43,768 nucleotides of DNA, from the NCBI GenBank assembly GCA_026387795.1, contig JAPLLA010000053.1, forward strand, positions 1 to 43,768. Direction: 5' to 3'. Position numbers and translations under genes: made by a program. This DNA comes from Candidatus Saganbacteria bacterium (GTDB taxonomy: Bacteria; Margulisbacteria; WOR-1; JAPLLA01). The notes under the pieces were generated by a model that saw nothing but the letters and a program-made list of their open reading frames with translations, was not told the DNA's origin and searched no databases. This document shows, piece by piece, positions 13,314 through 26,216 of the stretch (its first letter is position 1; each line of letters starts with the position of its first letter).

Positions 13314-14411
13314 TTATCCCTCTGCCGCTTGTTTTAAAAAGAACCAGCCTATGCCTGCGGTAATAAGGTTGGGTGACCAGGCTGCCAGCCAAGGTGGGAG
13401 TACCTCTAATTCCCCAAAGCTCATTCCTATAAACATGGCAATATAATAGAAGAAAATAATAATAATAGAAACACCAAGCCCAACCGAAGAGCTGGCGCGT
13501 CGGGGGGAAAGACCCAGCGGAGCCCCCAGTAGAGCAAAAACCAAACAAGCAAAGGGGATGGCGATTTTCATGTTGAGCTGGATTTTATAATCCGTAACTT
13601 TTGCTCCCATTTTTTGTTTTAAATCTATGTATTTTTTTAGCTCCCTGGTATTCATTCCTTCTGGGTTGCGGTCTCCAATATAAAAATCCTGGGGAGTGTA
13701 CTTGATAGAGATTCTTTCTTCATCAAAACGGATAATGTGTTTATATTCCCCATTTTCTGAAAGGAGATAAATAATACCGTTCTTAAAAAGCCAGCTGTTT
13801 TCCTCTTTTTGCCAAAGAGCCTGGTTGGCGTTGATGATTTGGTTTAGTTTTCCTTCGTTAAATTCTTGTACAATGACCCCTTCCATTTGCGGGCCTTGCA
13901 TCTTGCGGCAATAGAAGATTCTTTTTAGCGCTCCGCGTTCAAATTCAGGGACAAAAACATCTTGTTGTACGCGGGTATCTTTTTGTGTGGCGTTTTCCAT
14001 GAGCAGGTTTTTAGCTGCTTCGTTGGATTGTGGCACTACTACCTCATAGAAGCTCAGGGTGATAAGGCTGATGATAAAACCGATGACAAGAATGGGCATG
14101 ACAATACGATATAGACTAATACCCGAAGCCTTGAAAGCGGTAATTTCGCTGTCGTGTGAAAGCCTGGAAAAAGCTAAAAGTACCCCCAAAAGTGTTGCCA
14201 TGGGAAATATATAGACCATGACCCCGGGGAGCTTAAATATAAAGAGTTGGAGCGCTACCAGCATAGGCATTCCTTTGAGCACTACTGCGCGCACCAGTTC
14301 AAACATGATCATGGAAGCAGAAAGAATAGCTGTAAAAGATCCCAAGCCAAAAAGGAAAGGGTCTATAAATTCTCGGGAAATATAACGGTCCAGGGTTTTG
14401 ACCATGCTCAT
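13314..14411 (-). CDS. lptG: LPS export ABC transporter permease, second LptF/LptG protein
   Basis: The second YjgP/YjgQ permease in the window and the likely heterodimer partner of the one at 3930-5021. 365 aa: N-terminal helices with the conserved FPMATLLGVLLAFSRLSHDSEITAFKASG stretch, a periplasmic beta domain about 120-265 (with YIGDRNPEGMNTRELKKYI near its end), and C-terminal helices (IAIPFACLVFALLGAPLGL). It starts on an ATGA overlap with the lptB stop, so ATPase and permease are translationally coupled. The helix-loop motif before the last helices (GLSPRRASSSVGLG) is the usual LptG-like one. Naming it G rather than F is a guess from the operon with lptB. Confidence 0.9.
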   Translation of the reverse strand: MSMVKTLDRYISREFIDPFLFGLGSFTAILSASMIMFELVRAVVLKGMPMLVALQLFIFKLPGVMVYIFPMATLLGVLLAFSRLSHDSEITAFKASGISLYRIVMPILVIGFIISLITLSFYEVVVPQSNEAAKNLLMENATQKDTRVQQDVFVPEFERGALKRIFYCRKMQGPQMEGVIVQEFNEGKLNQIINANQALWQKEENSWLFKNGIIYLLSENGEYKHIIRFDEERISIKYTPQDFYIGDRNPEGMNTRELKKYIDLKQKMGAKVTDYKIQLNMKIAIPFACLVFALLGAPLGLSPRRASSSVGLGVSIIIIFFYYIAMFIGMSFGELEVLPPWLAAWSPNLITAGIGWFFLKQAAEG

Positions 14412-15133
14412 AGAGTAAACTTGTCTCCCAGATAGAGTTGTTTTGCTTGTTCGTTTTGAGCAATTTCTTCCGATTTTCCGGACATGAGGACTTTTCCTTT
14501 ATGAACAATATAAGCACGGTCAGTAATTGCCAGGGTTTCTCTTACGTTGTGGTCTGTAATTAAAATCCCCAAGCCTTTTTGTTTTAAGTAGCGAATAATG
14601 TTTTGCAGGTCTGTAATGGTTTTTGGGTCAATGCCGGTAAAAGGCTCGTCTAAAAGCAAGAAGAGGGGATTAGTTGCCAGTGCCCTTGCGATTTCTACTC
14701 TTCTTTGTTCTCCGCCGGAGAGGGTATAGGCTTTTTGTTTTCTTAAAGCAGTGACCCCCAATTCGTCGAGTAGGGCAGTGAGTTTTGATTCGTATTCTGC
14801 TGGCTTAATGTGGGGATTGAGTTCCCAGAGGATTTTTATGTTTTCTTCTACTGTGAGCTTTCTAAAAATAGAAGCTTCTTGCGGCAAGTAACCGATTCCC
14901 ATTTGAGACCTTCTGTGCATGGGGAGTTTGGTGATTTCATTTTCTTGTAAATATACTTTTCCTGCAGTTGGTTTTACCAGTCCCACAGTCATGTAAAAGG
15001 TAGTGGTTTTTTCTGCACCGTTGGGACCCAAGAGCCCTACAATTTCTCCGCGTCTTACTCTAATAGAAATTTCGTCTACTACCTTATTCTTTGCGTATGT
15101 TTTAACTAGTTTGTCTGTGCGTATTTCTTCCAT
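14408..15133 (-). CDS. lptB: LPS export ABC transporter ATP-binding protein LptB, with altered Walker A
   Basis: Cytoplasmic ATPase of the LPS exporter. 241 aa with all ABC landmarks: Walker A region at residues 36-44, Q-loop (GYLPQEASIF), signature YTLSGGEQRRVEIARAL, Walker B FLLLDEPFTGIDP and H-loop ITDHNVRETL. The Walker A reads GPNGAEKTT where the family has GPNGAGKTT: Glu41 (codon at 15011-15013) replaces the invariant glycine before the catalytic lysine, a GGA to GAA change. If real, this should badly impair nucleotide binding; it may be a sequence error or a mutated cell. Coupled to lptG by ATGA and 2 nt after trpD. Confidence 0.93.
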   Translation of the reverse strand: MEEIRTDKLVKTYAKNKVVDEISIRVRRGEIVGLLGPNGAEKTTTFYMTVGLVKPTAGKVYLQENEITKLPMHRRSQMGIGYLPQEASIFRKLTVEENIKILWELNPHIKPAEYESKLTALLDELGVTALRKQKAYTLSGGEQRRVEIARALATNPLFLLLDEPFTGIDPKTITDLQNIIRYLKQKGLGILITDHNVRETLAITDRAYIVHKGKVLMSGKSEEIAQNEQAKQLYLGDKFTL

Positions 15134-17189: not shown

Positions 17190-17217
17190 TGAAATTTTTA
17201 CCATAAAGAAGCGATAG
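17190..17217 (+). promoter_or_regulatory. Sigma-28-like promoter element, copy 1
   Basis: TGAAATTT (17190-17197), 12-nt spacer, AGCGATAG (17210-17217), 40 nt before the ATG at 17257 of the histidine-kinase-type gene. It matches the elements at 22116, 38365, 41966 and 43303 in both boxes and in exact spacing. Confidence 0.55.
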
Positions 17218-17256
17218 TAAAGATGTAAGAATCAATAAATGGTTAGGAGTGGAAAA

Positions 17257-18501
17257 ATGGGAGAAGTATCTGCTGCTAGACAACTGAAGGCAATCGCTAG
17301 GGAAGCGGACCGGCAGGCGCTGGCATATGGTCAAAAGATTCGTGCGCAGTTTGGGAAGTTGCCTGTTAAAGAACAAATTCAGGGTTTAGCGCAACTAGTC
17401 AAAGAATATAAAAAAGGGGTATACGGTGTTGAAGGGCGGCTTTTCGAATTATATAGGGAAAATTATGCGGGTAGACAAAAACCAGGGGAGCTAGACTGGC
17501 AGTCAATAATGCTTGACCTTGTGAACCATGATTTGGCGCATTTGAGGGATCATATTTCTGGTCAGCTTGCATATGGGGCAAAGAAGAGGGGGAGCGAACC
17601 AATAGATTTTAAAATACAGCAAGCAGTAGGAGAGTTAGTAAAACGTAGCGGTGAATATTTGGTTTTTGCCAATTATCCTTTACGGATTATAGCAACACTG
17701 GCAGCCCAGCAGGAGTGTTTAGCTCCTGCTTATGCGCATTTTAGCCTAGAAAAGATGTTTGAATTAATCGCTTTGAGTGGTTTTTTTCGGTCGCTTGTAG
17801 AGGGAACCTGGAATACTAATTTTCAGGTTGGAACATACAGCAAAGAAAAAGCGGCTGACCCTGCTTATGCAGGGATATTGACCCATCTTGAGCCAGGGTT
17901 GAAATTAAAAACAATTGAACCGTATGTAGTTTCCATTTTTTATAACCTGATAAAAAATGCATTCAAAATCATGCTCTGGGATCCAGATGGAGAACCTGTG
18001 CCTGGAGCAAAGGTTGTAGTTTCAGCTTTGACCCATCCAACCTATCCTTCCGTGGCAGTGGTTGAAGTGATTGATAACGGGCCAGGGTTTGATCTAAGGA
18101 CAATTTCACAGCAAGCACTTCGCATTAAGACGTCCTCACCTGGATCTGTTGGTTTATCAGCAGAGATTCAGGATGCTATAGAGCGGCTGAACGGGTCGCC
18201 TTATGCATATTCGATTGATGTTAATGAATTAATGCGTTTGGTTTTTCTCTATCGGTTAACTGCTAGTGCCGGGGGAGGGCTTGGATCGGGTTTAGGGTTG
18301 TATGGGGCAAACCAGCTTTCAACGCAGCTCCATGGAAGTTATGTGGTGGGTATGAATCACCAGAAAACAGAACCTTTTACTACTGGAGCGCGTTTTATGT
18401 TTTTCTTGCCCAAAGATCCCTATGCTTTTATGCCGGACCTTTCTCTGTTGACCAAAGATGTTCAGTATGGAGCATTGGAAACGCCAATTTTTAGGGGATA
18501 G
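17257..18501 (+). CDS. Soluble histidine-kinase-type ATPase (HATPase_c)
   Basis: A 414-aa cytoplasmic protein with a GHKL/HATPase_c domain: N-box FYNLIKNAFKIM (about residues 230-245), G1 box EVIDNGPGFD, and G2 box GSGLGLYGANQL. An upstream helix contains LVNHDLAHLRDHI (about residue 90), which looks like a dimerisation/phosphoacceptor H-box. There is no signal peptide, membrane helix or recognisable sensor domain, and no response regulator nearby, so the partner is unknown. ATG 17257 (MGEVSAARQL) has AGGAG 7 nt upstream and is preferred to ATG 17239. It is first in an operon with the two module-repeat proteins, behind promoter copy 1. A non-kinase GHKL ATPase remains possible. Confidence 0.75.
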   Translation: MGEVSAARQLKAIAREADRQALAYGQKIRAQFGKLPVKEQIQGLAQLVKEYKKGVYGVEGRLFELYRENYAGRQKPGELDWQSIMLDLVNHDLAHLRDHISGQLAYGAKKRGSEPIDFKIQQAVGELVKRSGEYLVFANYPLRIIATLAAQQECLAPAYAHFSLEKMFELIALSGFFRSLVEGTWNTNFQVGTYSKEKAADPAYAGILTHLEPGLKLKTIEPYVVSIFYNLIKNAFKIMLWDPDGEPVPGAKVVVSALTHPTYPSVAVVEVIDNGPGFDLRTISQQALRIKTSSPGSVGLSAEIQDAIERLNGSPYAYSIDVNELMRLVFLYRLTASAGGGLGSGLGLYGANQLSTQLHGSYVVGMNHQKTEPFTTGARFMFFLPKDPYAFMPDLSLLTKDVQYGALETPIFRG

Positions 18502-18542
18502 AAATTATCCGGTTTACCAATTTTCAGCAATGAGGTTTTATT

Positions 18543-19409
18543 ATGGGAACAAGAGCAGTAGGACAATTGGACATAATGCTTGCGCAGGCAAGGAGTCTTT
18601 TGCCGATGAATGCAAAAGCAAAAAAAGCAAGGGGATTGGCGTGCCTTTTGGAAATACGCCGCATAGCACCAGAAAATCCCGCTGCTTTTGCACTAGCCAA
18701 AGTTTATTTCCTGGAATTCGCTTCTATTGCAAGGCAACGTAGAGAGTGGGGGGAAGAGGCAGAAGCCCGCAGTGCTTGTGAACAAGCGCTTTCAATCCCT
18801 TTTACTAGAGCGGAGTTAGGGAGAGATATTCAAATTGATGGAGCAATAACAGCAATGGAAGAGATGTACGGTGCGCAAAGAAAAATAGCTCCTAGTGTTC
18901 CGTATACGCCGGTAGTTGCTCCTCCAGTAGCTCCAGCAAAAACTGCACATTCTTCTCAAGCTCCTTGTATGCCATCCGCAGTTTTAGCCCCTTCTGACTC
19001 TGATCAGGGTCTCAGTGAGATTGCAGTTTTTTGTAATGCTTATTTAAGTATGTTGCGCAGGGATTTTCCTTTTTTGAATGAGCCTCTCAAGGAAGGTCGT
19101 ATTAAAAGGGTTGGACATGGAGATGAAAAGCGAGTTGTTAGAGCAGCAAGACGATTGGAACAGCGGCTACAAGTTATACGGTTTTTAAGAGGTCATTCGG
19201 AGATGAAGAGTGCGGGCATAAAACACAGTAATCGTCCAATATTTAGTTTGATTACTGGTCAGGAGGAATATAGGGTGTTTGGAAAAAGAGCGGCTACTGC
19301 TTTTCTTGAAGCAAGGGTTGCCGCAGGACTTGAACACAACCCTGCAGCTTTAGAACGGATTAAAACTGCGATACGAGAAGAATATGAGGCAGCAGTAGCT
19401 AAGGAGTAA
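18543..19409 (+). CDS. Unknown protein with one copy of an RDYPFL/FSLITG module
   Basis: A 288-aa protein not recognised as a known family. Residues 1-110 are helical; 115-155 form a Pro/Ala/Ser linker; from about 160 to the end it is one module: CNAYLSMLRRDFPFLNEP, an Arg-rich helix (RAARRLEQRLQVIRFLRGH), PIFSLITGQEEYRVFG and FLEARVAAGLEHNPAALERIK. This module is close to the last part of the next protein (residues about 755-885), so the two genes are paralogous there. It follows the HATPase gene by 41 nt and precedes the next gene by 8 nt. No signal peptide or catalytic motif is visible. Confidence 0.7.
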   Translation: MGTRAVGQLDIMLAQARSLLPMNAKAKKARGLACLLEIRRIAPENPAAFALAKVYFLEFASIARQRREWGEEAEARSACEQALSIPFTRAELGRDIQIDGAITAMEEMYGAQRKIAPSVPYTPVVAPPVAPAKTAHSSQAPCMPSAVLAPSDSDQGLSEIAVFCNAYLSMLRRDFPFLNEPLKEGRIKRVGHGDEKRVVRAARRLEQRLQVIRFLRGHSEMKSAGIKHSNRPIFSLITGQEEYRVFGKRAATAFLEARVAAGLEHNPAALERIKTAIREEYEAAVAKE

Positions 19410-19417
19410 TCACGACA

Positions 19418-22081
19418 ATGTTTGAGCTTAGTAGAAGGGTTTGTTTTTATAGGGATGGAGGATCTTCTCCTTCAAAGCCTGTGGCACCAAGGAGAATTAT
19501 TGTAAGGCTTCAAGCGCCAGTGGTTCAGCCTGTGCCTGCGTCAAAACCATCTGCATTGTCTTCTGCAGCAGCAAAAGCAGCGGAAAGAGCAGATCGGAAA
19601 AGATTAACAGCAGAAACAGGCAGAATGGAAAGACTGATGGAAATGGGAAGGCACATCCTTGAAAAAAAAGATCTTACTGTAGCGGATCTTGATATGGCTT
19701 TGGGTATTTTTGCCAGGGTCTACAGAGACGATCCTTCTCATGTGGAAGCAGCCAGAGCAGTTGTGGATATCTTTTACCGTGAAACAGGATTAGCTGCGGA
19801 AGTGTTTACGGCTGACGATGTGGAAGTACCGGGTTTAACTCCTCCGCAAAAAGCATCAATAGTTACTGCTTCCAGAAGTTTATATGTGGCCAGAATTTTA
19901 TCCGAGATTCCTCCCGCACAAATGACCGAAGAAGGGATTCGCAGCGCAGCACCGGAAATCGTACCTTTTATTTTTGGCATACCAGAAAAGCCTGTTCCAG
20001 ATGGATTGGCCGCAGCACTGGAATTTATGTATTTGTGTTATCCGGAAACGCGACCCGTAGTAAAAAAGAGGGCGGGGGGGGGAGAGGAAGGAGCGGATTT
20101 GCGGTTGATTGTAAAAAGGGTTGAGATTGGAGAGGCATTATTAGAAGCAGCAAGGAAGAGTTTTGATGCGGGGCGATATGCAGAAGCAGCAGAAGGGTTT
20201 AGCCATGTTTTACCATTGGAACCTGGTAATGTAGAAGCTCTTTGCTCTTTCCATTTAAGCGCACTTAGAAGAGATTATCCTTTTTTGGTGGGTGCAGAAC
20301 CCGAAGTTACTATGCACCGTCCGGTAAGAAGGGTAGAACATTTACTCTTGGCAAAGCTGGAAGGAGTCAGGGTAAAGCCTCGAACAGCAGGAAGTAGAGA
20401 AATTGAAAGGATAGAAAGGGAAGTGGCACAAGCCAGAGAGGTTAGGTCTTTAGAAGAATTGGTTGCCAGCGGAGAGTTGTTTGCAAAACCTATTGCAGAA
20501 ATTAATCGTCCTGGCCGTTTAGAGCTTGAAATTCAAGCCCAAAAAGATGAACTACTAGTAACAGCAAGAGAGTGTTTTGAACGTGGTGAATATGCGCAGG
20601 CAGCAGAAGCATTTTACTCTGCACTGGAATTGGACCCTGTTGACGGAGAAATGTTTTTTAGGTTTCATCTAAGTGCATTACGCAGAGACTATCCTTTTTT
20701 GCTAAATCGTGAGGAGAGAAATATTGAACAGATCAGGGTTTTTCTTTTGGAAGAGAGATTTGAAAAAACATTAAAAGTAATTCCGTTTTTAAGGGAAAGG
20801 CCGGCAGTTTCTATTGATGAGATCAGGGCCGGAAAAGAAGGAGATCCTCTTTGTGCGGAAATTTTGCGTTATGTGGATCACAGGGCTTGCTCTAGGGTGG
20901 TAGGGAATTTTTATGATGCGCAGGTTGTTTCAGGTGTGGTTTTAGATTTAGAAGCTTGGGATCAGTTCAAAGTAGAGATAGAAGCAGAAGCAGCTTCTCT
21001 TGCAAATGTATTATCCCTAGAAAAATGTCATGAGAAACATGCGGTGCTGGCAGAAGCAATGGAATGTTTTGGAAGGGCTGAATATGAGCAGGCAGAGAAT
21101 GTTTTTGGCAGAGTGCTGGAGATTGACCCCAACGATATTTGGGTTCTTTGCCATCTGCTTATTTGTAGGATGGAACAGGCAAATGTGCTATTTCCCGAAA
21201 ACGGGGCCAAGAGTGTTCAAAATAAAGGGACTGCAATAGTGCGGGTTTTGAAGCATAGTATACAAGTACTGGATTTTATAAGAGCACATCCATTGTACAG
21301 TACAACAGAAATACTTGAAGCAGATAGTGTGGTTTTTAATTTAATTACAGGGGGTTCCGAACGAAGCATGTTTTCATGCATTTCTGATGCAAGGGTATGT
21401 GCGGGTGTAATTTATGATCCCACGGTGCTGGAAAGTATGAAAATGCATATCCAGGAGAGAGTTGCTAGTACCCGTAACGAGATTACAACATATGTTCTAC
21501 CTATGCCTGTTCCAAAAGAGCGTCAGGCGCGTACTTTTACTCCTGTTCCACCACTTCCGGCTGATATTAAAACCCGAAAAGATGCTTTGGTAGCAGAAGC
21601 TCAAATGGCATTTAGGGAAAAAAGATATGCAGAAGCTGTTGCTTCTTTTCACTCTGCAGCTGAACTGGATCCCAATGATATTGAAGTTTTCTGTAATGTT
21701 TATGTAAGTATTCTGCATCGGGATTATCCATTTTTGGATGTGCCCCCTAGAGAAGGGTGGGGTAAGAGAATCGGACGTGGTTATGAAATGCGATTTTTTA
21801 GGGCAGAGCGAAGATTGAGGCAGAGGCTGGAAGTAATCCGGTTTTTGGGTAGTCATGCAGGTATGAGATATGTGGATTTAAGAAAAGAGGGTGGACCAAT
21901 ATTTAGTTTAATTGTTGGTCAAGAGACTTTTCGGGTGTTTGGAAATGGAGATGCTCCTGCTTTTCTTGAAGCAATGGTAGCTGCAGGACAGCATTATGAT
22001 CCAGCAATTATTGCAGGGATAAAAGAGGATATTGTTAAAGAATATAGAGCTGCTACAGGTGAAGCTAGAGACGAAGCGTAA
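19418..22081 (+). CDS. Unknown large repeat protein: four TPR-plus-RDYPFL modules
   Basis: An 887-aa protein of unknown function. After a Pro/Ala-rich start (1-65) and a helical region, a unit recurs four times: a TPR-like helix pair (ARECFERGEYAQAAEAFYSA and relatives) followed by a module whose start is LRRDYPFL near residues 283 and 421, a degenerate copy near 585, and LHRDYPFL near 766. Fuller copies continue through an Arg-rich helix, an FNLITG or FSLIVG motif and a DPxxLExxK helix. Copy 4 is nearly the same as the module in the preceding protein; copy 1 lacks the second half. AAGGAG at 19401 overlaps the upstream stop. The architecture suggests a binding scaffold, perhaps partnered with the HATPase. 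Confidence 0.7.
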   Translation: MFELSRRVCFYRDGGSSPSKPVAPRRIIVRLQAPVVQPVPASKPSALSSAAAKAAERADRKRLTAETGRMERLMEMGRHILEKKDLTVADLDMALGIFARVYRDDPSHVEAARAVVDIFYRETGLAAEVFTADDVEVPGLTPPQKASIVTASRSLYVARILSEIPPAQMTEEGIRSAAPEIVPFIFGIPEKPVPDGLAAALEFMYLCYPETRPVVKKRAGGGEEGADLRLIVKRVEIGEALLEAARKSFDAGRYAEAAEGFSHVLPLEPGNVEALCSFHLSALRRDYPFLVGAEPEVTMHRPVRRVEHLLLAKLEGVRVKPRTAGSREIERIEREVAQAREVRSLEELVASGELFAKPIAEINRPGRLELEIQAQKDELLVTARECFERGEYAQAAEAFYSALELDPVDGEMFFRFHLSALRRDYPFLLNREERNIEQIRVFLLEERFEKTLKVIPFLRERPAVSIDEIRAGKEGDPLCAEILRYVDHRACSRVVGNFYDAQVVSGVVLDLEAWDQFKVEIEAEAASLANVLSLEKCHEKHAVLAEAMECFGRAEYEQAENVFGRVLEIDPNDIWVLCHLLICRMEQANVLFPENGAKSVQNKGTAIVRVLKHSIQVLDFIRAHPLYSTTEILEADSVVFNLITGGSERSMFSCISDARVCAGVIYDPTVLESMKMHIQERVASTRNEITTYVLPMPVPKERQARTFTPVPPLPADIKTRKDALVAEAQMAFREKRYAEAVASFHSAAELDPNDIEVFCNVYVSILHRDYPFLDVPPREGWGKRIGRGYEMRFFRAERRLRQRLEVIRFLGSHAGMRYVDLRKEGGPIFSLIVGQETFRVFGNGDAPAFLEAMVAAGQHYDPAIIAGIKEDIVKEYRAATGEARDEA

Positions 22082-22115
22082 GTTGCGCCTCTTTTTCCTC
22101 TTTCCTCTTTCTAAG

Positions 22116-22143
22116 TGGGATTTACAGCGCATTTTAACGATAG
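22116..22143 (+). promoter_or_regulatory. Sigma-28-like promoter element, copy 2
   Basis: TGGGATTT (22116-22123), 12-nt spacer, AACGATAG (22136-22143), 24 nt before the ATG at 22168. Two substitutions from copy 1 in the first box; the spacing is the same. Confidence 0.5.
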
Positions 22144-22167
22144 ATATATAGGGGGAATAATATTTCC

Positions 22168-23148
22168 ATGCAAGCAGAAAGAGTATGTTGTGCAAGGCAT
22201 CCTGAATTTGTGTATCCGCATTTTGCAAAGGCACAAGCGCCAACTAATGGGGTTTTTAAAGAAACTCCTCCGCCCGGGACCACCCATTATTACCGCGGAA
22301 TGAAGGACGAAAGGGATTTACCCTGCTTATTAAAGGAAAGGTATCAAATTGGTCCGCATGATACAGATCCTGTTGCAGCATCAGGATACAATCAGACTGT
22401 CATGGGCTTTTGGTTTAATGGGGGAGAACATGAACACGCAACGGGTCATGATGAAGATCTTTATCCTATGGCATCAGGGCTTACTCCTGAGCATTTAGAT
22501 TTTAGATCAAAAGTGGTAATGGTTAGAAGATTTGGCTTGGATCCAACTACTTCTGCATGGAGACCGCATTTAGGGACAGAATGGAATAGGGCTTTTACTG
22601 AATTAAGAGACAATCCTGCGGTTTCAACCATGTTACAAGCAGAAGATCTTTTGGGGGGATTAGGTGTATCCAAGGATGTCATCTTCCCGTTTCTTGCTCA
22701 CTTGGATCCAAAAACCGTAATTGATGATTTAAAGTTTATCCAGGCACAACTGGGTGCACTAAGATTAACCGCTTCTGAGGAAGAACTTAGTCCGGAAAAT
22801 CCCAAGTTATATTCTCCTGAACGCCCTCTATTTGAAAGGGAACAGCAGGCAAGGCGCTTTAAAGATGAAATTGCAATAACTGCTTTTCTACCAGTACCGG
22901 AAACACCCGGTACAACGGTTACTGTAAATCGTGTTAACTTAGAAAGAGTAAGGCTATTGCTCCAGGAATTGTCTTGTAAGCCAGATCAAGCTACATTATA
23001 TAGACTGTTATCAAATAATCCTTCATTAGTAGAGTTTTTTAAGTCTTATTTAGAAAAGCCAGAACCCATGTTAGCAAGACCGGGTTTCCCGCTTCCAGAT
23101 GCATATGCCTTTGCATTGCCGGTACACACTTACAAATCTAACCTCTAA
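22168..23148 (+). CDS. Orphan protein of unknown function
   Basis: A 326-aa soluble protein that I do not recognise. It has a His/Tyr/Gly-rich first third ([33 protein letters not shown]), a helical middle ([22 protein letters not shown]) and a Pro-rich end. The [10 protein letters not shown] cluster could bind metal but matches no motif I can name. There is no signal peptide or membrane segment. AGGGGGA lies about 12 nt before ATG 22168, and promoter copy 2 sits just upstream, separating it from the preceding operon. glyQ follows 38 nt later behind its own promoter. Confidence 0.65.
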
Positions 23149-23149
23149 G

Positions 23150-23179
23150 TTGCGGTCTTCCCCTTTTTTGTGTTAGTAT
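23150..23179 (+). promoter_or_regulatory. Probable glyQ housekeeping promoter, leaderless
   Basis: TTGCGG (23150-23155), 18-nt spacer, TAGTAT (23174-23179), then 7 nt to the ATG of glyQ. No Shine-Dalgarno sequence precedes the ATG, so the mRNA may begin at the start codon. Confidence 0.45.
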
Positions 23180-23186
23180 TTCCTTA

Positions 23187-24090: not shown

Positions 24091-26216
24091 ATGATGGTTA
24101 CTAAAAAGTTAAATGCAATATTGGAGATTGGAACCGAAGAGATTCCTGCGCGTTTTGTGCGGGAGTTTTTGGATGACCTAAAGAAGAAAGCGGAAGAAAA
24201 ACTGGCTGCCAACCGCATTGAATATCTATCCGTACGAACCCTTGGGACCTATCGCCGCCTTACATTATATATAGAGGGAATTGCCCCAAAACAGATTGAT
24301 CAAAGCTTTGAAGCAAAAGGTCCGTCCAAAGAAATTGCTTTTGATAAGGAGGGTAAACCTACGGGGGCAGGAATTGGTTTTGCCAAATCCCGTGGGGTGG
24401 AGGTTAAGGATCTAATCATTAAGACCGAAGGGCCCAAGGAATATGTTTTTGCACGCGTGTTTAAAAAAGGACAGCCTACAGAAAAGATTTTACAAACCTT
24501 GTTTCCGGAAATTATCACTTCCCTTTATCTTCCGCTATCAATGAGGTGGGGAGAAGGGGACTTTAAGTTTATCCGTCCGATCCATTGGCTTCTTGCTTTA
24601 ATCGGTAACAAGCCGGTTAAATTTATGTTGGCAGGGATCACATCTTCAAATAAATCTTTTGGGCATCGCTATATGGTGCCAAAAAGCGATGATGGCCATC
24701 ATCGCTTTTTGGCCTTTGGCAAACAGCCGATTGAATTATCAACTTATCTTAAAGCCTTACAAGCCACAAAGGGGTTATGGTTGATCACGAGGAGAGAAAA
24801 GCAAAGATCAAAGCTGCAATCTCTGCTTTAGCTGCAAAACAGAAAGGACAGGCCGTGATTGAAGAAGATTTGCTGGAAGAGGTTACATTCCTGGTTGAAT
24901 ATCCCTCTTTTGCTGTTGGCAAAATCAATCCAGATTTTCTTAAACTTCCTTCCGCGGTACTGGTTACAAGTCTAAAGAAAAATCAGAAGGCTTTCCCTGT
25001 TATTGGGGCAAACGGTAAACTTCTTCCTTTCTTTATAGTAGTTGTGGACAATCAAAAATCATTGCCAGTTGCAGGCGGTAACGAAAGAGTTGTTACTGCA
25101 CGGCTTTCGGATGCAGCTTTCTTTTTTGAGGAAGACAAACAAGTTCCCCTTGGTAATAGAGTGGCAGAACTTAAGCATGTTGCGTTTCTAAAAGATTTAG
25201 GGACCATGTTTGATAAAAAAGAGAGGGTAAAGCACTTGGTTGCGTGGCTTGCAAAACAATTAAAGCTTGATGGCGGGATAGAAGAAAACATGGTGCGTGC
25301 TGCTGAACTGTACAAAGCAGACCTTGTTACCAAGATGGTGTTTGAATTTGGTGCGCTTCAAGGAATAATGGGTAAAGAATATGCTCTAATAGCCGGGGAA
25401 AAGAAAGCAGTGGCAGAAGCTATTTATGAGCACTATCTTCCACGTTTTACCGGAGATAAGCTTCCCCGTACTAAAGAGGGGATAGTTTTATCTTTGGCTG
25501 ATAAGATTGATACTTTGGTTGGCTGCTTTGCATTGGGATTGGTTCCCACTGGCTCTGCGGATCCTTTTGGTTTAAGAAGAGCTGCGCAAGGGTTAGTGCA
25601 AATTGTACTTACAGAACGCATTGATTTGGATTTAGAAGAGTTGTTTGAAATATCTTATAAGTCTTATAGTGGCCTATTAAAGGACAATAAAAAGAAGAAA
25701 GAGTATGCAGAAGTTAAGAGTACTCTTTTTGATTTTATTAAAACCAGGGTAAAGAATATTTTGCTTGAAGATGGTTATCGCCACGATGTGGTAGAAGCTG
25801 CTCTGGGCGGGTTCAACTACATCTGCGATGCGTATGCTAAAGCCCGGATTGTAAGTGAAGTTGCGGATACGGATTGGTTTAAAGGAATATTCATGTCTGC
25901 AGACAGGGTAATTCGTTTGGCAGTTAATGCAAAAAGGGAAAACGTTATTCCAGAAGACTTGGTTGATCCGGAAGAAAAGGTGTTGCATGAGTTATATCTA
26001 AAAGTTAATTGGGAAGTAGAGGAGAAAATTAATAAGGATGATTTTAAAGGTGCTCTTGAGATTTTAACCGGGTTTACGGCTCCGCTGGAGGAGTTTTTTA
26101 ATAAAGTAATGGTGATGTGTGATGATGAACGCCTTAAAGCCAACCGCTTGGCCTTACTTAAGACCCTTGAAAGAATGTACCAAAACCTGCTAGATTTTAC
26201 GAAATTCACAATATAA
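24091..26216 (+). CDS. glyS: Glycyl-tRNA synthetase beta subunit, interrupted by a -1 frameshift
   Basis: tRNA-binding subunit of glycyl-tRNA synthetase, partner of GlyQ. The coding region is split between two frames: 24091 to about 24774, ending at TAG 24831 if unshifted, and a continuation in the -1 frame to 26216. Re-reading one G at the run AAAGGGG (24768-24774) gives TKGVMVDHEERKAKI, exactly the family sequence at this place, and restores a protein of about 708 aa, close to the usual length. A_AAG_GGG fits the X_XXY_YYZ slippery pattern, but a missing G is the simpler explanation. Residues about 197-209 (KSDDGHHRFLAFG) lie on a 36-bp perfect palindrome and look like an insertion in the loop after GHRYMVP. 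The C-terminal part includes the HD-like domain (TGDKLPRTKEGIVLSLADKID). Confidence 0.88.
24678..24713. repeat. 36-bp perfect palindrome inside glyS
   Basis: The arms GCCAAAAAGCGATGATGG and its exact reverse complement meet at GGCC (24694-24697) with no loop. It is read in frame as part of GlyS, about 55 nt upstream of the frameshift site. Confidence 0.9.
24768..24774 (+). other. Frameshift point in glyS (AAAGGGG)
   Basis: Zero-frame codons are ACA AAG GGG TTA; moving back one base after GGG continues GTT ATG GTT GAT CAC and matches the GlyS family. It is either an indel in a G run or a -1 slippery heptamer. Confidence 0.8.

Follow-up and report, generated by a model that had tools for sequence, protein, structure and literature searches.

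What are the two neighboring proteins of this locus, which share a repeated helical module, and are they tied to the histidine-kinase-like gene that precedes them? The window, that is, the whole 43,768-nucleotide stretch of DNA analyzed here, comes from a genome of 2.04 Mb in the WOR-1/Saganbacteria class and contains four co-directional genes at 17239-23148, named H (420 aa), A (288 aa), B (887 aa), and D (326 aa). The successive gaps between them are 41, 8, and 86 bases, and glyQ starts 38 bases after D. The open reading frames of A and B were found exactly where the initial annotation had placed them. The same annotation put a GHKL ATPase gene in their operon; this gene, H, is found upstream of A, outside the region 18543-22081 to which that statement was attached. 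The block and its genes are as follows.

17205-23186, no strand assigned: H-A-B-D block of ~6 kb between fmdB (minus strand) and glyQ (plus strand), two genes that adjoin in several relatives by tblastn.
17239-18501, plus strand: H, soluble GHKL (histidine-kinase-like) ATPase of 420 aa, with a Pfam HATPase_c match (E 2.6e-9), invariant motifs, and no hydrophobic segment.
17527-17532, plus strand: His97-Asp98 of H (NHDLAHL), candidate H-box-like phospho-acceptor, invariant in five homologues.
18543-19409, plus strand: A, 288 aa, with a degenerate helical N-terminus, a linker, and a single C-terminal module (open reading frame, self-BLAST).
19418-22081, plus strand: B, 887 aa, with four TPR-plus-domain units (open reading frame, Pfam, self-BLAST).
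22168-23148, plus strand: D, orphan protein of 326 aa and final gene of the block, with no family match and one homologue in 69 genomes of the phylum.

In the module, a TPR hairpin leads into a helical domain of ~105-125 residues (LRRDYPFL ... FSLITG ... AAG). In line with the earlier claim that A ends with one module and B holds four, the C-terminus of A matches B four times by self-BLAST (E 7e-39, 2e-9, 9e-7, and 3e-4), the best pair being A and B copy 4, with 51-53% identity at E 7e-39. A profile of the domain places the copies of B at residues 267-298 (partial), 404-528, 569-688, and 749-882, and in the DNA the copies are distributed as follows.

19002-19403, plus strand: module copy in A, 51-53% identical to B copy 4.
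20114-20533, plus strand: B copy 1, with TPR and LRRDYPFL intact and the remainder eroded (profile, shuffle test).
20534-21025, plus strand: B copy 2, with its domain at about 20627-21001 (self-BLAST, profile, shuffles).
21026-21577, plus strand: B copy 3, domain about 21122-21481, RDYPFL lost and FNLITG kept (self-BLAST, profile, shuffles).
21578-22078, plus strand: B copy 4, nearly intact, domain about 21662-22063 (self-BLAST, profile, AlphaFold model).

This similarity is not just that of TPR helices, because the parts from LRRDYPFL onward are significantly similar on their own. With the TPR helices removed, the pairs A-B4, A-B3, A-B2, and B2-B3 reach z scores of 49, 20, 10, and 11, each beating 500 of 500 shuffles, and B copy 1 without its TPR part is marginal (z 3-4 over 500 shuffles). 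Moreover, A, B2, B3, B4, and a relative from another genome (G009, described below) are mutually alike beyond 500 of 500 shuffles once the sequence before LRRDYPFL is cut off. The module had thus been correctly described as coupled to TPR helices, and its copies as ranging from nearly intact (B4, 53% identical to A) to degenerate (copy 1). The proposed motifs need correction in three copies: LRRDYPFL is absent from copy 3 (which keeps FNLITG), FSLITG is lost from copy 2 (which keeps RDYPFL), and only TPR and LRRDYPFL are recognizable in copy 1 (residues 267-298 of B). A further diverged copy considered at residues 50-109 of B was discarded, since its score was no better than that of shuffled sequence. 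The dN/dS value between A and B4 is 0.39 (bootstrap 0.23-0.65; dS 0.87), so these copies are maintained under purifying, though loose, selection.

The domain from LRRDYPFL to AAG is undescribed and matches no known sequence family, as had been supposed. Searches of Pfam, NCBIfam, PHROGs, and PADLOC gave nothing above cut-off over it, the best hit of a PDB sequence search had an E value of 0.9, and no enzyme, defense, or phage family matched A or B. The TPR part of B is recognized by TPR_14 (8.6e-13) and TPR_11 (1.7e-12), with three B units passing on their own; A matches no TPR model. AlphaFold models, fed by only 5-6 sequences, are confident and all-alpha both for TPR plus domain (B copy 4, 21560-22078; pLDDT 87.1, pTM 0.84), where the domain packs after the TPR pair, and for the domain of A alone (pLDDT 83.9, pTM 0.79), with main helices at residues 6-21, 40-64, 70-76, 78-85, 97-107, and 114-132. 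Foldseek with the whole unit returns mainly TPR structures at E 0.1 or worse. With the domain, no PDB structure matches at E ≤ 0.001 (best E 1.2, listed TM-scores <0.4), a result to be read knowing that the novelty of small helical bundles is hard to prove by fold search. The predicted small fold is possibly undescribed as well.

The domain is present in only two of 74 genomes of the phylum, this one and G009 (candidate division WOR-1 bacterium RIFOXYB2_FULL_42_35, same class), where it occurs in a stand-alone protein of 243 aa. The profile E-value of this protein follows by construction, and independent support comes from its single-sequence match with A (E 2.5e-8, 27% identical). It has no TPR detectable by Pfam and carries a C-terminal truncated copy of the second half of the domain (z 6.6), a unit with similarity to the C-terminal end of a contig C18 TPR protein of the present genome as well (z 8.1). 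The small C-terminal unit common to the two proteins (WRI..., LFxGGIxEA) lies at L014:9076-9981 and L013:9943-10107. Scans of about 85,000 species genomes, which reach close relatives only, gave no match with B and only its own record with the G009 domain; viral contigs and phage records searched for A gave nothing. Weak profile matches in G023 and G017 were rejected, being antisense to lon and to a long orphan open reading frame, respectively, and a match of the C18 C-terminus in G012 was rejected as a 69-aa frame outside any long open reading frame.

On this evidence there is about an even chance that A and B are cytosolic protein-binding adaptors, or scaffolds, of one WOR-1/Saganbacteria lineage. 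TPR repeats are established protein-binding modules, and each unit would be a TPR hairpin capped by the all-helical domain. The unit would have been amplified by duplication, most recently giving the pair of A and the last B copy, with divergence or decay of the older ones, and its repetition would make a multivalent protein able to hold several partners at once. The units would bind proteins, and presumed co-transcription with H would make H a possible client. The significant repeats, the TPR at three B units, the all-alpha model, the dN/dS of 0.39, and the absence of membrane segments and enzyme families in the searches made all favor the adaptor reading. Against it, divergence or degeneration has affected three of the four B copies, a pattern equally in line with decay, and the domain must have a separate role, because the G009 relative carries it without detectable TPR.

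A reading only a little less probable than an even chance is that no functional relation joins H, A/B, and D, which would be lineage-specific genes gathered at one permissive site between fmdB and glyQ. When the flanking genes were compared by tblastn with 30 glyQ loci of the class, the fmdB match was found 6-19 bases from the glyQ match at L060, L063, L064, L067, and L083, and trpD adjoined glyQ at L062, L071, and L082. Since fmdB and/or trpD lie directly beside glyQ in several relatives, H-A-B-D would be a lineage-specific insertion or would have been lost elsewhere. The closed junctions agree with mere neighborhood, as do the sporadic distributions of all four genes in the class, which do not track each other, and the homologues elsewhere, which stand alone among housekeeping genes. 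The D homologue (39% identical) is in G004, adjoining two phosphofructokinase-like genes, in a genome with neither an H homologue nor the module; D matches no known family. Against mere neighborhood stands the arrangement of the four genes, which run in the same direction at short distances and include two that share the module. No mobile-element gene was seen beside the block and no RNA family or tRNA within its region, its codon usage is close to that of other genes of the window, and promoter-like sites in the region are below chance expectation. The adaptor reading may be compatible with H as a passive neighbor, as these explanations are not all mutually exclusive. Two other features of the window were recorded. 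The LptB-like ABC ATPase at 14408-15133 (minus strand) has GPNGAEKTT as Walker A, the usual form being GPNGAGKTT, which is either a sequencing error or an altered nucleotide-binding site. Also, glyS (24091-26216) is split into two overlapping frames of 246 and 479 aa, probably by a frameshift, real or assembly-derived.

A signaling complex, in which binding of A and B would set the dimerization or activity of H as a soluble histidine kinase passing phosphate to a stand-alone receiver, is rather unlikely. H matches HATPase_c (E 2.6e-9), and its GHKL ATPase domain shows the N, G1, and G2 boxes (DNxxGF and SGxGL motifs). Five WOR-1 sequences keep His97-Asp98, a pair usual in the H-box of histidine kinases, Lys239-Asn240, Asp279-Asn280-x-x-Gly-Phe, and Ser350-Gly-x-Gly-Leu invariant. 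From this invariant His-Asp pair and the ATPase boxes, the members of the family would probably be soluble histidine kinases rather than bare ATPases. The intact boxes and invariant His-Asp pair accord with a signaling role, as do the common direction of H, A, and B, which are separated by 41 and 8 bases, and the 17 receiver domains above the Pfam cut-off in the genome, several of them in stand-alone open frames of 129-154 aa. These receivers also qualify the earlier statement that the ATPase has no regulator partners, which is right for the neighborhood and not for the genome. However, no HisKA-type Pfam model and no dimerization-domain family matches H, and the other full-length homologues have a different, longer N-terminus. 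In the longer homologues (L025:6748-8316, L026:6839-8464, and L027:3436-4944), this N-terminus shows G(W/Y)P(T/N)YP(T/A) and then an RP-containing stretch; GWPTYPT was considered as a targeting tag and set aside, and a class-wide pattern scan for it matched the H homologues and one other (G016). H has no hydrophobic segment, plasmids searched for it gave nothing, and no literature on kinases of the WOR-1 lineage was found.

Genomic distribution weighs further against a signaling complex. H homologues form a sporadic WOR-1 family, present in G006 (two), G024, and G026 (near leuS in the last two), all without the module, whereas G009 has the module and no H homologue. As G006 is 99% complete, the absence of the module there carries weight; completeness is under 80% for G024 and G026. 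The co-occurrence of module and ATPase gene that the initial annotation had named as a check is therefore not seen in other genomes, and the signaling part of the unusual signaling or scaffold system that it proposed is left weak. Coupling of H to A/B is possible, but the chances are against it. That a new helical fold would dock a soluble histidine kinase, with B gathering several kinases and possibly receivers on a TPR scaffold in a receptor-free complex, is very improbable.

Nucleic-acid binding, with the short helices (EIR.., FSLITG, ..EAxxAAG) as a helix-turn-helix-like unit on DNA or RNA and the Arg-rich helix touching the backbone, is unlikely: A (pI 10.2, net +9) and G009 (pI 10.4, net +10; whole protein +20) have a basic domain, whose second half recurs as the small C-terminal unit of the G009 and C18 proteins, but in B2 and B3 the domain is acidic or neutral, and no helix-turn-helix appears among the best Foldseek hits or as a Pfam match.

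The analysis adds an undescribed protein domain, whose small fold is possibly undescribed too, from a deep-branching uncultured relative of the Cyanobacteria, and it delineates in WOR-1 a sporadically distributed family of histidine-kinase-like proteins that are soluble and receptor-free. Its general weight is limited by the narrow range of the domain (two genomes among 74); if the kinase link were true, this would be a scaffolded signaling system without a receptor. Compared with known systems, H resembles GHKL histidine kinases in its HATPase_c domain, its N, G1, and G2 boxes, and the conserved His-Asp that precedes the ATPase domain, and differs from them in having no detected HisKA-type domain, sensor domain, membrane segment, or adjacent receiver. 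The 243-aa protein of WOR-1 RIFOXYB2_FULL_42_35 (MEUC01000039.1) differs from A and B by its undetectable TPR, the absence of a kinase gene beside it, and its truncated second copy of the C-terminal half, and has the same domain (27% identical, E 2.5e-8). Finally, each B unit starts with a TPR hairpin as in TPR proteins (Pfam TPR_14, TPR_11, TPR_1), and unlike them continues into a domain absent from Pfam and lacking a PDB fold match, which in G009 stands free of TPR.
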